A stretch of DNA of 36,576 nt from Deltaproteobacteria bacterium. Lineage in GTDB: Bacteria > Desulfobacterota > Desulfuromonadia > Geobacterales > DSM-12255. The DNA is taken from the NCBI GenBank assembly GCA_021849045.1, contig JAJZTK010000025.1, forward strand, positions 1 through 36,576, read 5' to 3'. Within the stretch, counting starts at the first letter, position 1; each line of letters starts with the position of its first letter. The translations under genes were made by a program, and so were the position numbers. Shown piece after piece: positions 30,131 to 36,576 of the stretch. The notes beneath the pieces were generated by a model. That model saw only the letters and a program-made list of their open reading frames with translations. It searched no databases and was not told the origin of the DNA.

Positions 30131-30187
30131 GTTCGAGGTTCGAGGTTCGAGGTTCGAGGTTAAAACATCGAACATCGAACCTCGAAC
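30131..30187. repeat. Tandem heptamer repeat with inverted arm before the RNase J gene
   Basis: Four perfect direct copies of GTTCGAG (30131-30158) are followed, after a short AT-rich loop, by three inverted copies with small changes (CATCGAAC, ATCGAAC, CTCGAAC; 30166-30187). On the minus strand this forms a hairpin of about 20 bp ending seven bases before the RNase J start codon. It fills nearly the whole 68-base gap to the upstream TPR-like gene. Confidence 0.85.
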
Positions 30188-30191
30188 AGGT

Positions 30192-32126: not shown

Positions 32127-32274
32127 GCCTGCCATGGGGCATCCGAGCATTAGAATTTCATAGTCTCCATCGGGGAAACCTGCTATATCTGTGCTCGTCC
32201 GGCTGTTACGGGGCCGCTCAGCGCGGCGCCATCCATCCGGACAACACCCGAATGACGACGAGGACAGTATTCCC

Positions 32275-34824
32275 GTGTCCGCTAAAGAAGCCACCGCCAG
32301 GATCAGGATAAACAGACTGCTCGAAGCTTCCGGCTGGCGCTTCTTCGCCGACGGTGCCAACCCGGCCAATATCAGGCTGGAGCCGGGCACCACGATCAGG
32401 ACGACCGACCTGGACGCGCTCGGCAACAACTTTGAAAAGACCAGCAAGGGATTCATCGACTTCCTGCTGCTCGACGCCAAAGGGTTCCCCCTCATTGTTC
32501 TGGAGGCCAAGTCCGAGGAGAGGAACCCGCTGGTCGGCAAAGAGCAGGCCCGCAGATATGCCCGGTCGCAGAACTGCCGGTTCGTTATCCTCTCCAACGG
32601 CAACCTCCACTATTTCTGGGACCTGGAGCGGGGCAACCCCTACGTCATCACCTCGTTCCCCACGCCCGATTCGGTGACCGGCTACCGGAAAATTGCCCCC
32701 GATCCCCAGCGCCTGATCGACGAGCCGGTTGACGACGACTACATCGTCCTGACCCAGCAACCGAATTACCGGCGCGACGCAGCCTGGCAGAGCGAGCAGG
32801 AACGGCCGGACTATATCAGGGCAAACAAACTCAGGTTCCTTCGCCCTTACCAGCTGCAGGCGGTGCACCGGCTCCAGGCGGCTGTGAAAGCAGGGCATGA
32901 CCGTTTTCTGTTCGAGATGGCCACCGGTACCGGCAAGACCCTCGTCGCCGCAGCCGCCATCAAGCTCTTCCTCCGCTCCGGCAATGCCCGGCGCGTCCTC
33001 TTTCTGGTCGACCGGCTCGAACTGGAGGACCAGGCGGGCAAAAAGTCCGACTCGCCGCTCCTTTCCCTGTCCGCCGATTTCCGCACAGTCATTTACAAGG
33101 AGAACCGGGACGACTGGCAACGGGCGGAGATCGTGGTCACCACGGTGCAGTCGCTCCTCTTCAACAACAAATACCAGCGGCTCTTTTCCCCCACCGACTT
33201 CGATCTGGTCATCTCCGACGAAGCGCACCGCTCCATCGGCGGCAACGCCCGCGCCGTGTTCGACTACTTCATCGGCTACAAACTCGGCCTGACCGCAACC
33301 CCGCGGGACTATCTCAAGCGCTTCGACAGGAAGAACCCCACGACCCGCGATCCCCGCGAGTTCGAGCGCCGGCTGCTGCTGGACACCTACCGCACCTTCG
33401 GCTGCGAGAGCGGCCAGCCAACCTTTCGTTATTCCCTGCTGGACGGCGTCAGGGACGGTTTCCTCATCAACCCCACGGTGGTGGACGCCCGCACGGAAAT
33501 TACCACCGAACTTCTCTCGGAGGAGGGGTTTGTGGTCACCTTTACCGACGATGCCGGCGAGGATCAGCAGGAGGCGTTCAAACAGCGGGAGTTCGAAAGG
33601 CGCTTCTTCGCCGACGCCACCAACCAGCTCTTCTGCAGAACCTTCCTGGAAAACGCCCTGCGTGACCCGGTGAGCGGCGAAATAGGCAAGTCCATCGTTT
33701 TTGCCGTCAGCCAGAACCACGCCGCCAAGTTGGCGCAGATTTTCAACCAGATGGCCGATCGGATGTTTCCCGGCAAGTACCGGTCCGACTTCGCCGTCCA
33801 GGTCACCTCGCAGATCGCCGACGCCCAGCAGTTCACCATCAACTTCACCAACAACCACCTGCTCGGCTCGGCCAATTTCCTGCCCGCGTACAGGACCAGC
33901 AAGGCCCGGATCTGCGTCACCGTCGGCATGATGACCACCGGCTACGACTGCCCGGACATCCTCAACCTCGGCCTGTTCCGCCCCATCTTTTCCCCCACCG
34001 ATTTCATCCAGATCAAGGGGCGCGGCACCCGCAGACACAACTTCCTCGACCAGCTCTTCGACGATGAGCTGAAGGAAAGCATAACCAGGCCACAGAAGAG
34101 CGCCTTCAAGCTGTTCGACTTCTTCGCCAACTGCGAGTACTTCGAGGAGGAGTTCAACTATGACGAGGTGCTGAAACTGCCTCAGCATGCCTCCCAGTCC
34201 ACAGCGTCCACCACCTCGTCCACAACGTCCGCCTCCGGCGAGGCATACGAGCATTTGGGAAGCGACATTATCGCCTCCATCAAGGAGGAGGAAGTCGGTT
34301 TCGAGGGGATGAAGATCGACCGGATGTTCTTCGAGAAGTTTGGCGACACGGTGCGCAGCAACGACGTCATCGTCCAGGGGATCGAGTCCGGGCAGTGGGA
34401 CCGGGTCATCGACTACGTCAACCGGGAGCTCTTCGACAAGCCCCAGGAGTACTACTCCCTGGAGAAGCTGCGCCGGGCCGCCGCCGTTGACCGGCGCCTG
34501 ACCCTGCGGGAGATTCTGGAAAAGATCTTCGGCCTCATCCCCCGCTTCAAGAACCGGGACGAGCTGCTGGAAGAGGAGTTCGCCAAGTTCGTGGCCGACA
34601 CCAGGCCGACAGAGGCCGAGGCGATCCCGGCCATCAAGACCTACTTCAAGGCCTACGTCACCAGCAACCAGATCCGCCACATCATCGAGAGCCGCCACTA
34701 CACCGATCTGGCGACCAATCCGGTCTTTTCCAGCCGCGACTTCAAGGCGGTGCCGTCGAAATACCGCACGCTGATCCCCGAGTACGTCAAGGACTACGTT
34801 CCCCTGAACCAGTTCGTCAACTAG
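32275..34824 (+). CDS. hsdR: Type I restriction enzyme R subunit (HsdR)
   Basis: ATP-dependent DNA translocase and nuclease. The 849-residue protein has an N-terminal PD-(D/E)xK nuclease core (D62 in GFIDFLLLD, then E77 and K79 in VLEAK), a helicase domain with Walker A MATGTGKTLVAAA (about 215-227) and Walker B ISDEAHRS (about 311), and GLTATP and a second RecA domain (GRGTRRHNF). The start is uncertain: GTG 32275, with GAGGA ten bases upstream, gives the family N-terminus (SAKEATARIRINRLLEASGW); the open frame begins at 32191. Near residues 641-652 lies a Ser/Thr-rich stretch encoded by GTCCAC repeats. Most like the EcoEI-type subfamily. Confidence 0.95.
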   Translation: MSAKEATARIRINRLLEASGWRFFADGANPANIRLEPGTTIRTTDLDALGNNFEKTSKGFIDFLLLDAKGFPLIVLEAKSEERNPLVGKEQARRYARSQNCRFVILSNGNLHYFWDLERGNPYVITSFPTPDSVTGYRKIAPDPQRLIDEPVDDDYIVLTQQPNYRRDAAWQSEQERPDYIRANKLRFLRPYQLQAVHRLQAAVKAGHDRFLFEMATGTGKTLVAAAAIKLFLRSGNARRVLFLVDRLELEDQAGKKSDSPLLSLSADFRTVIYKENRDDWQRAEIVVTTVQSLLFNNKYQRLFSPTDFDLVISDEAHRSIGGNARAVFDYFIGYKLGLTATPRDYLKRFDRKNPTTRDPREFERRLLLDTYRTFGCESGQPTFRYSLLDGVRDGFLINPTVVDARTEITTELLSEEGFVVTFTDDAGEDQQEAFKQREFERRFFADATNQLFCRTFLENALRDPVSGEIGKSIVFAVSQNHAAKLAQIFNQMADRMFPGKYRSDFAVQVTSQIADAQQFTINFTNNHLLGSANFLPAYRTSKARICVTVGMMTTGYDCPDILNLGLFRPIFSPTDFIQIKGRGTRRHNFLDQLFDDELKESITRPQKSAFKLFDFFANCEYFEEEFNYDEVLKLPQHASQSTASTTSSTTSASGEAYEHLGSDIIASIKEEEVGFEGMKIDRMFFEKFGDTVRSNDVIVQGIESGQWDRVIDYVNRELFDKPQEYYSLEKLRRAAAVDRRLTLREILEKIFGLIPRFKNRDELLEEEFAKFVADTRPTEAEAIPAIKTYFKAYVTSNQIRHIIESRHYTDLATNPVFSSRDFKAVPSKYRTLIPEYVKDYVPLNQFVN
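34197..34230. repeat. GTCCAC nonamer-type repeat inside hsdR
   Basis: GTCCAC occurs at 34197, 34206 and 34218, with GTCC at 34227; steps are 9, 12 and 9 bases. It is in frame and encodes a Ser/Thr-rich linker (STASTTSSTTS) between helicase and C-terminal domains of HsdR. Confidence 0.85.
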
Positions 34825-34835
34825 GGGCGACCGAT

Positions 34836-35492
34836 ATGACCGCCGATGAACAGCTGATACCGCAGCATGGCGGCTACCGGAAGCTGAGGAGTTTCCAGGT
34901 AGCCCAGCTGGTCTACGACCTGACGGTCAGGTTCTGCGACCGCTACATCGACCGGCGGAGCCGCACCCATGACCAGATGGTGCAGGCGGCCCGGTCGGGG
35001 GTGCAGAACATCGCCGAAGGGAGCCAGGCCTCGGGCACATCGAAAAAGATGGAGCTGAAGCTGACCAATGTGGCGCGGGCCAGCCTGGAAGAGCTCAGGC
35101 TCGACTACGAGGATTTCCTGCGCCAGCGGGGACTGCCGCTCTGGGAGCGAAGCGACCCCCGCCGGCAGCGCCTGATCGACCGGCGCTGCGCCACCGCCGA
35201 TGCGGTGGCACTGTGGGTCAAAGATGAGCATCAGAACCCTGGTGGACTTCGTGGACAAAACAGTGGACGGAGTGGACAACACGACCTGTCCACTTCGTCC
35301 ACACCGTCCACCTTTCCCGAAATTGCCGCCAATGCCGCCCTAACACTCCTGGCGGTGGCCTGCAGCCTGCTCGACCGCCAGCTGGCGGCCCAGGCGCAGG
35401 CCTTTGAAACCGAAGGGGGCTTCACCGAACGCCTCTACCGGGTTCGTTCTCAAAAGCGGTCCAATAAGTCCACCAAGTCCACCAAGGATTAA
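34836..35492 (+). CDS. Four-helix-bundle (S23-type) protein with suffix domain
   Basis: A 218-residue protein. Residues about 15-128 are a four-helix bundle of the S23/avd type, with the landmark SGVQNIAEGSQASG (about 54-67) and LEELRLDYEDFL. A low-complexity insert follows (about 130-159, NPGGLRGQNSGRSGQHD, then LSTSSTPST), encoded by GTGGAC/GTCCAC repeats. A helical suffix (FPEIAANAALTLLAVACSLL, about 160-205) and a KSTKSTKD tail, also repeat-encoded, complete it. This matches what I remember as the four-helix-bundle suffix family. It lies 11 bases after hsdR and 6 before hsdM, so it is part of the R-M operon. The bundle is known in ribosomal and retroelement contexts, but no reverse transcriptase is here. 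Function unknown. Confidence 0.85.
   Translation: MTADEQLIPQHGGYRKLRSFQVAQLVYDLTVRFCDRYIDRRSRTHDQMVQAARSGVQNIAEGSQASGTSKKMELKLTNVARASLEELRLDYEDFLRQRGLPLWERSDPRRQRLIDRRCATADAVALWVKDEHQNPGGLRGQNSGRSGQHDLSTSSTPSTFPEIAANAALTLLAVACSLLDRQLAAQAQAFETEGGFTERLYRVRSQKRSNKSTKSTKD
35242..35311. repeat. GTGGAC/GTCCAC nonamer repeats with hairpin, inside the four-helix-bundle gene
   Basis: GTGGAC at 35242, 35251, 35263 and 35272, then the inverted form GTCCAC at 35288, 35297 and 35306; steps within groups are 9, 12, 9 and 9, 9. The stretch 35263-35278 pairs with 35287-35302 over 16 positions with one G-T. The frame is kept throughout. Confidence 0.9.
35459..35485. repeat. Three nonamer repeats at the end of the four-helix-bundle gene
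   Basis: GTCCAATAA, GTCCACCAA and GTCCACCAA follow each other with no gap (35459-35485), just before the stop codon at 35490-35492. They encode the SNKSTKSTK tail. Confidence 0.9.
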
Positions 35493-35498
35493 TCAATA

Positions 35499-36576
35499 AT
35501 GCTCGACACCGAAACCAAGCGCCGCATCGACACCGCCCGTGACATCCTCGTCGGCAAAGTGCCTGACCCCAAGAGCCAGGTGGAACAGATCACCATCGCC
35601 CTGATCTACAAGTTCATGGACGACATGGACGCCGAGAGCGAGGAGTTCGGCGGCGAGCGCAAGTTTTTTGCCGGCGACTTCGCCCGCTACGGCTGGGCCA
35701 GGCTGATGCGCGCCGGTCTCGGCGGCCACGAGACCCTCAACCTCTATGCCGAAGCGATCACCCGGATGCCGGAGAACCCCGGCATCCCGCTCCTGTTCCG
35801 CGACATCTTCAAGAATGCCTATCTCCCCTACCGCGACCCGGAGACCCTGCGCGCCTTTCTCAAGGTCGTCGACGAATTCGAGTACGACCACTCCGAGCGG
35901 CTCGGCGACGCCTTCGAGTATCTACTATCGGTGCTCGGCTCCCAGGGGGACGCCGGCCAGTTCCGCACCCCGCGCCACATCATCGATTTCATGGTGGAGA
36001 TCGTCGCCCCGCAGAAAAACGAGACCGTCCTCGATCCGGCCTGCGGTACCGCCGGCTTTCTTATCTCTTCCTACAAGCATATCCTCCGCACCAACACCGA
36101 CGCACAGGGCAACAGCACTTTGACGCCCGACGACCGGGGGCGGCTGGCGGGCAACTTCAAGGGGTACGACATCTCGCCGGACATGGTGCGACTCTCCCTG
36201 GTGAACCTGTACCTGCACGGCTTCGCCGACCCGCAAGTGTTCGAGTACGACACCCTCACCAGCCAGGAGCGCTGGAACGAATACGCCGACGTCATCCTCG
36301 CCAATCCCCCCTTCATGTCGCCAAAGGGGGGGATCAAGCCCCACAACCGCTTTTCCGTGCAGTCCAAGCGCTCCGAGGTGTTGTTTGTCGACTACATGGC
36401 CGAGCACCTGACGCCGACCGGCCGGGCGGCCATCATCGTGCCGGAGGGGATCATCTTCCAGAGCCAGACCGCCTACAAGCAGCTGCGCAGGATGCTGGTG
36501 GAGGAGTACCTGGTGGCCGTGGTGTCGCTCCCGGCCGGGGTGTTCCAGCCCTATTCAGGCGTCAAGACCTCCATCC
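35499..36576 (+). CDS. hsdM: Type I restriction-modification methyltransferase (HsdM), cut by window edge
   Basis: N6-adenine methyltransferase subunit of the type I system. The visible 359 residues begin MLDTETKRRIDTARDILVG. They have an N-terminal helical domain (to about 170) and the methyltransferase core: motif I LDPACGTAGFLISSY (about 178-190), the GYDISPDMVRLSLVNLYLHG stretch, and motif IV ILANPPF (about 266-272), the adenine-specific N-P-P-F. The start ATG at 35499 is six bases after the stop of the four-helix-bundle gene; AAGGA lies ten bases upstream. The C-terminal part and hsdS are expected beyond the window. Confidence 0.96.
   Translation, partial: MLDTETKRRIDTARDILVGKVPDPKSQVEQITIALIYKFMDDMDAESEEFGGERKFFAGDFARYGWARLMRAGLGGHETLNLYAEAITRMPENPGIPLLFRDIFKNAYLPYRDPETLRAFLKVVDEFEYDHSERLGDAFEYLLSVLGSQGDAGQFRTPRHIIDFMVEIVAPQKNETVLDPACGTAGFLISSYKHILRTNTDAQGNSTLTPDDRGRLAGNFKGYDISPDMVRLSLVNLYLHGFADPQVFEYDTLTSQERWNEYADVILANPPFMSPKGGIKPHNRFSVQSKRSEVLFVDYMAEHLTPTGRAAIIVPEGIIFQSQTAYKQLRRMLVEEYLVAVVSLPAGVFQPYSGVKTSI

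Follow-up and report, generated by a model that had tools for sequence, protein, structure and literature searches.

RAYT genes lie between inverted copies of a cognate repeat, and the repeats coevolve with the genes (PMC2817692). Proteins of the S23 family, PF05635, are encoded by the open reading frame of 23S rRNA intervening sequences, small inserts that are horizontally transferred and excised by RNase III (PMC4990558), and PF05635 proteins resemble Avd of diversity-generating retroelements (PMC10053308). Here, we describe a four-helix-bundle gene in a contig of a Deltaproteobacteria bacterium (JAJZTK010000025.1; 36,576 nt, hereafter the window). The gene encodes a protein of 218 residues, sits between hsdR and hsdM of a type I restriction operon and carries short tandem DNA repeats. 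Similar arrays accompany relatives of this gene across many phyla, with a repeat word and a period that follow the protein. Overall, the bundle family seems to represent a tiny selfish genetic element of a type not described before.

The bundle genes share traits with the REP-RAYT system (PMC2817692): their cognate repeats are dispersed and fast-changing and coevolve with the protein, the last subject to the linkage of gene and array discussed below. Inverted cognate repeats on both sides of the gene, as in REP-RAYT pairs, were found at many plain bundle genes. Unlike RAYTs, however, the protein is a four-helix bundle without a transposase match, and its repeats are tandem 7-, 9- or 10-mers. 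In genes that also encode a TIGR04258 suffix domain (suffix type), arrays also lie inside the open reading frame, often in the linker, so the layout differs as well. REP repeats, by contrast, are palindromic and some 20–40 nt long. As the transposase that defines REP-RAYT systems is absent, the bundle system is not a member of that class. The protein does belong to the family found in 23S rRNA intervening sequences, PF05635/S23 (PMC4990558). Unlike those inserts, the window gene lies between hsdR and hsdM rather than in rRNA, has a suffix domain and, like the other bundle cassettes, has tandem arrays of a clade-specific word. In contrast to Avd of diversity-generating retroelements, no reverse transcriptase was noticed beside a bundle gene, including in the annotations of the 20 plasmid loci described below (L502 being unannotated), although no dedicated search was made. 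Short tandemly repeated repetitive (STRR) heptamers are repeats of filamentous cyanobacteria with a period of 7, the same period and hosts as the heptamers described below at bundle gene ends. We know of no link between STRR heptamers and any gene; in the open-access literature, we found neither such a link nor one between bundle genes and repeats. We accordingly regard the system as new, with a known protein family and an unproven mechanism.

Nonamer arrays at suffix-type bundle genes

A preliminary description of the window, made from its sequence alone, had reported in-frame clusters of GTCCAC or its complement GTGGAC, at steps of 9 or 12 bases, in three places of the restriction operon. 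Motif positions and reading frames bear this out. Three copies of GTCCAC lie in hsdR (34197, 34206 and 34218, plus strand), seven copies lie in the linker of the bundle-suffix gene (GTGGAC at 35242, 35251, 35263 and 35272, then GTCCAC at 35288, 35297 and 35306) and two copies of GTCCAC lie at the end of that gene (35468 and 35477). The reading frame is intact across all copies in both genes. As RNA, the two linker arms fold with −41 kcal/mol (z −5.7). The total of 30 GTCCAC/GTGGAC copies in the window is not unusual (expected 23.7, standard deviation 4.3; 8 of 100 shuffles reach 30). Twelve of them fall in 1.3 kb, and the remainder lack the 9- or 12-base spacing. The 9-spaced pair GTCCACNNNGTCCAC was found at eight places in its own genome, six inside the array stretch of the window and two elsewhere. 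Since a backward control of this pattern was found at 13 places, the genome-wide count of GTCCACNNNGTCCAC alone is no proof.

To survey the suffix-type family, 244 genomes of the source class were searched with TIGR04258, yielding 130 matches in 86 genomes. A first set comprised 61 loci with wide flanks, namely the best-scoring ones and the window. A larger set comprised 119 loci, 11 of the 130 matches not having been fetched; 23 of the 119 had no readable bundle core. In the first set, period-9 self-matches occurred at the gene in 50 of 61 loci, amounting to 73 segments in 85 kb. Other periods between 4 and 17 gave 0–2 segments each, and period 18, the double of 9, gave 45. More than 1.5 kb beyond the gene zone, period 9 was not outstanding (28 segments, versus 17 of period 7 and 21 of period 12). 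In the larger set, arrays were present at the gene in 90 loci. Together, these counts support the proposed tie between the repeats and the four-helix-bundle family.

The arrays of seven protein clades are built from seven words: RTGGACNNN, GTCNGACNN, GATCNGNCN, ATGGGANNN, ATAGGWCNN, ATGGGACNN and ARGGACNNN. Strict units of the clade's word were present in 28/35, 22/22, 16/17, 15/17, 5/8, 5/12 and 8/8 loci, respectively. In long loci, strict cognate arrays (at least three units) numbered 53 up to 800 bp from the suffix start and two over the 786 kb farther out; the corresponding numbers for all six non-cognate words pooled were seven and three. Array density did not fall off gradually with distance; strict arrays lie at the gene itself.

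Restriction operons are not the usual home of the suffix type, as an HsdM match was found at just 12 of the 61 loci; one further locus (L075) had HsdR and HsdS matches. Plasmids and phages were likewise rejected as vehicles, the searches returning one plasmid record, no phage and one IMG/VR contig. At nine loci (L098, L099, L101, L102, L107, L108, L111, L113 and L128), a Cys-rich zinc-ribbon-like tail (CPxCGKPM...FWGCxGYPxC) follows the downstream array.

Repeat words, periods and protein clades

We compared protein identity with word similarity among 76 loci that had a bundle core and recurring hexamers. The two were correlated with a Mantel r of 0.675, a value reached by none of 2000 shuffles (best shuffle, 0.084). 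All 22 pairs of loci from the same genome had different words, with a similarity of at most 0.18; sharing a genome adds nothing to word similarity. Among the 438 pairs from different genomes with a protein identity above 0.8, word similarity exceeded 0.1 in 78%. Words persist while free bases and copy numbers vary.

The same association was observed beyond the source class. Relatives of the window protein numbered 80 among the matches listed, from many phyla and including one viral contig; one further locus (L322) was set aside as its period-9 and period-10 signal was an artefact of an N run. Period-9 segments were present in 40 of these 80. RTGGAC/GTCCAY pairs were present in 42 of the 61 loci among the matches listed whose protein was at least 57% identical to that of the window, with hosts that include Acidobacteria, Verrucomicrobia, Lentisphaerae, Myxococcota, Chlamydiia and Flavobacteriales; some close relatives, such as L255, lack these pairs. 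Fourteen more distant suffix-type loci among the matches listed have a period of 10 instead, mostly with CACGGACNNN. This period (30 segments) was first taken as noise; decamers were then found in most of the 18 loci concerned. Wherever a GTCCAC linker has two arms, the GTGGAC arm precedes the GTCCAC arm; this order was found in 20 of 20 linkers of one set and 18 of 18 of another, with one locus or more (L234/L259) common to both. Each arm always keeps one reading frame, indicating that coding also constrains the arms.

Occupied slots, empty slots and solo arrays

Plain bundle loci, defined as 26 TIGR02436 matches without TIGR04258, were taken as a negative control. These loci contained 52 period-7 segments versus two of period 9. 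The period-7 arrays occurred in 22 of the 26 loci, with 39 of the 52 segments within 200 bp of the gene ends and 13 elsewhere. At suffix-type loci, period-7 segments numbered three near the gene and 21 far from it. A plain bundle query against plasmids matched 31 records, of which 25 were cyanobacterial. Twenty cyanobacterial plasmid loci were read, including near copies; heptamer arrays lay within 200 bp of the gene in 18, with 32 segments in 8 kb versus 17 in the 70 kb elsewhere. A looser test, which accepted one heptamer pair with at most one mismatch, was applied to both plain sets (46 loci). It detected heptamers at the gene in 44 loci and on both sides in 37; the two-sided heptamers were inverted in 28, direct in four and unrelated in five. 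A solo inverted heptamer array, GTTCGAG ×4 facing CGAACAT/CGAACCT, which resembles those at the ends of plain bundle genes, is present in the window itself at 30131–30188. Two plain bundle genes with heptamers (L489 and L493) are found in type I-D CRISPR operons, between cas6 and cas4, and a third (L492), without an array above threshold, lies between cas10 and cmr3.

Filled and empty versions of the same site were found for plain bundle genes. Those of Trichormus variabilis (L498) and Scytonema (L505) lie inside a conjugation operon. In Tolypothrix and Nostoc plasmids whose flanks are ∼98% identical, only the array-gene-array stretch is missing. The empty site has one GTAATTAA; the filled site has GTAATAAA before the cassette and GTAATTAA after it. 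At a second plasmid site, TTCTA is duplicated. In two homologous Nostoc operons, 97% identical over their matched part, the bundle cassettes differ in both word and slot. One cassette (L501, AGGAGTC) lies behind a 441-bp gene and the other (L497, GGGAAAA) behind the next gene, of 288 bp; each slot is empty in the other operon, and both are empty in L509 and L510. Four of these five slots have a stop codon no more than ∼15 bases from the cassette start. Arrays also vary in length, the left array of L505 being 14 bases, or two heptamers, shorter than that of L498. At two of these sites, other plasmids have arrays without the gene (L508 and L512). For the suffix type, we examined the etfA slot of one genus, where the gene is missing in five genomes. 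In the four of these genomes whose junction was compared, a stretch resembling its last ∼18 bases is seemingly kept, so we rejected this slot as an empty site; the gene was probably lost there, leaving a remnant.

The slot behind hsdR was compared in relatives. A search of 141 genomes of the source order returned eight hsdR matches besides that of the window at E below 1e-100. One of these, from another family (L451), is 69% identical, contains one stop codon and is followed by a bundle-suffix gene. The same HsdR loop there carries an array related to that of the window in place but different from it. No array was found in this loop of L448, L449, L450 or L452. The next gene is not a bundle gene in L448, L449 or L450, and L452 ends too early to show it. 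The array is thus present in both bundle-followed hsdR genes and in none of L448–L450, indicating that the hsdR array and the bundle gene occur together. In L448, hsdR is followed by a DUF559 gene, flanked by inverted G-rich repeats, and then by hsdM. In this position, L450 has a GxxExxY gene between inverted ACAGGATNN nonamers, again followed by hsdM, and L449 has a GxxExxY fragment after CACGGA words, with no hsdM in the 0.9 kb read. From these arrangements, the hsdR-hsdM slot is common to several small repeat-flanked genes.

The features of this slot in the window are given in Table 1. The bundle-suffix gene starts 11 bases after the end of hsdR (34824) and ends 6 bases before hsdM. Its product scored above the cut-offs of TIGR04258 (74.7 bits, cut-off 40) and TIGR02436 (35 bits, cut-off 24) and just short of that of PF05635 (S23/IVP; 32.2 bits, cut-off 33.8). 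A scan against family models returned these three only, without a Y1/HUH transposase match. The AlphaFold model (mean predicted local distance difference test score, 88) has a confident bundle and long suffix helices, the array-coded stretch being a loose linker. The best Foldseek match was 2rld of the S23 family (probability 0.98 but a weak E of 0.6). Foldseek returned no solved structure at E ≤ 0.001, and a sequence search for solved relatives returned none at E ≤ 0.01.

Table 1. Coordinates of the hsdR-hsdM region in the window.
Feature	Position	Strand	Evidence
hsdR, type I restriction subunit R	32191..34824	+	Pfam ResIII, HSDR_N; NF046051 (EcoAI-like) under cut-off
GTCCAC cluster, 9-/12-base steps, in variable HsdR loop (residues about 669–683)	34197..34232	+	Motif positions
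Four-helix-bundle + suffix gene	34836..35492	+	TIGR02436 and TIGR04258 scores
Four-helix-bundle domain match	34887..35099	+	Profile match; AlphaFold helices 18–37, 43–62, 70–97
Linker array, left arm, 4 × GTGGAC	35242..35277	-	Motif positions
Linker array, right arm, 3 × GTCCAC, inverted relative to left arm	35288..35311	+	Motif positions, fold
Suffix domain TIGR04258	35316..35462	+	Profile match; helices 160–193, 196–217
Array at 3′ end of gene, GTCCAA then 2 × GTCCAC, period 9	35459..35485	+	Motif positions
hsdM, N6 methyltransferase subunit, cut by window end	35499..36575	+	Profile match

Arrays also occur away from bundle genes. Including arrays at the gene itself, GTCCAC triple arrays were found in 31 of the 86 class genomes with any suffix gene versus four of the 158 without, and GTCNGAC arrays in 25 of 86 versus 10 of 158. 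By contrast, CACGRAG arrays were not enriched (7 of 86 versus 13 of 158). The match of clade and word holds outside the array-rich genus too; the dependence of array on gene is weaker once linked arrays are set aside, a comparison based on incomplete lists of places. Solo arrays were also found where the cognate gene is absent, among the places listed. In the genome G216, GTCNGAC sites are dispersed over at least 17 places. Forty regions with arrays, each of at least about 8 kb, were compared; a period-9 segment was detected at threshold in 37, and a suffix-type bundle gene was present in one (L187), which had been chosen for being at the gene. In one spacer compared across 19 species, GTCNGAC units number nine in one species and two to six in five others; three species have only 2–4 bases there, and at least four have a different, G-rich inverted repeat. 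An inverted repeat of the G-rich GGGAGAGGG type fills this spacer in L363, L367, L370 and L372, and in shorter form in L358 and L368, where sister species have nonamer arrays. At another site, 10 GTCCAC copies are present versus one in a 97%-identical relative.

CACGRAGNN nonamers are dispersed in 20 of the 244 class genomes (e.g., G124, G073 and G062), often as two inverted arms about 40–90 bp apart. They were rejected as a mark of bundle genes, as neither a suffix-type nor a plain one was found at any of 30 loci (about 3 kb or less); a GxxExxY homologue was near two.

A candidate mobile cassette and its alternatives

We consider it probable, at roughly 60%, that the four-helix-bundle gene together with its cognate short repeats forms a small cassette that is, or once was, mobile. 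Word and period are specific to each protein clade (period 7 in plain, 9 in most suffix-type and 10 in a distant suffix branch); the repeats occupy the gene ends, frequently as inverted copies, and suffix-type genes have them in the linker as well. Cassettes lodge between genes, usually right behind a stop codon, such that the operon continues. The bundle protein may bind the cognate repeat, probably in the form of a single-stranded DNA or RNA hairpin, and would pass it to host replication or repair enzymes; arrays would then lengthen, shorten and seed new sites. In the window, a cassette would have entered the hsdR-hsdM slot, and the hsdR copies may represent secondary seeding into a tolerant loop. 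It is conceivable, if somewhat short of an even chance, that bundle proteins make a large part of the short tandem repeats of bacteria, namely nonamers, decamers and heptamers, among them the heptamers long known from filamentous cyanobacteria, that the protein sets word and period, and that the plain cassette is a mobile unit of ∼430 bp without its own transposase that competes with GxxExxY and DUF559 cassettes for stop-codon slots.

Several observations weigh against a mobile cassette. Of four aligned plasmid sites, two show short direct duplications, and one of these duplications is imperfect; in the remaining two, the empty version has bases that the filled one lacks, without a clear duplication. 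Clean empty sites were found for plain bundles only, the suffix type showing probable loss rather than gain. Family models detected no nuclease, integrase or polymerase in the cassette. At the threshold used, 29 of the 119 suffix-type loci have no array, and of 35 array-bearing genomes for each word, four with GTCCAC and 10 with GTCNGAC lack any suffix gene. Same-genome pairs never exceed 0.7 protein identity, a range in which different-genome pairs also differ in word, and part of the correlation of word and clade arises because gene and array are linked and co-inherited. Finally, complementarity between the free bases of the linker arms, tried as a sign of selected hairpins, mostly did not exceed the shuffled level (mean z −0.64; 8 of 38 linkers below −1.65).

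The arrays might instead be neutral minisatellites, generated by slippage in tolerant linkers and spacers, whose word recurs by joint inheritance with the gene. Linkage alone would make the word track the gene, arrays are longest where copies are identical, and a 9-bp unit preserves the frame in arrays that occupy loops and spacers. Nevertheless, we regard this as distinctly unlikely: periods of 7 in plain and 10 in distant suffix-type loci would break a frame, the arrays at gene ends include some that are not part of the reading frame, the word is conserved between phyla despite variation in the free bases, and the order of the arms is fixed. Moreover, strict arrays are almost absent 0.8–8 kb away, and array-gene-array units are present or absent as a whole. 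A regulatory or RNA-processing role, in which mRNA hairpins are used by the protein or RNase III for insulation or autoregulation in foreign operons and solo arrays form a regulon, seems rather unlikely. The strong fold of the two-armed linker in the window, the location of cassettes within operons and the kinship of plain bundles with the open reading frame of RNase III-excised intervening sequences (PMC4990558) are consistent with such a role; the complementarity of most linkers, at the level of shuffled bases, and the appearance and disappearance of solo arrays at the same site between species are not.

The preliminary description had favoured an active process, in which the same unit arose independently in adjacent genes by repeat expansion, insertion or use as a tag. 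This is partly supported, as the family-linked arrays gain and lose copies between related species. Neither of the outcomes named as refuting it was observed: the arrays are strongly linked to the family, and those in the hsdR genes of the window and L451 are related in place but not identical. A bundle protein that actively expands repeats in, or tags, neighbours such as hsdR is very improbable. The hsdR array accompanies the bundle gene and copy numbers change fast, as such a machine would predict, but the near-absence of strict cognate arrays 0.8–8 kb from the gene argues against it. A tag is contradicted by the unlike peptides encoded by the two arms and by the arrays outside genes.

A mobile cassette remains our preferred reading. 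The association described here brings together two things that are common but unexplained, a protein family (annotated as 'four helix bundle protein' or 'S23 ribosomal protein') and a kind of bacterial DNA repeat, and yields a bench-testable sequence rule, namely that both word and period track the protein. If the reading is true, it would add a new class of minimal mobile element, offer an origin for the heptamer repeats of cyanobacteria and explain small odd genes inside restriction, CRISPR and conjugation operons.

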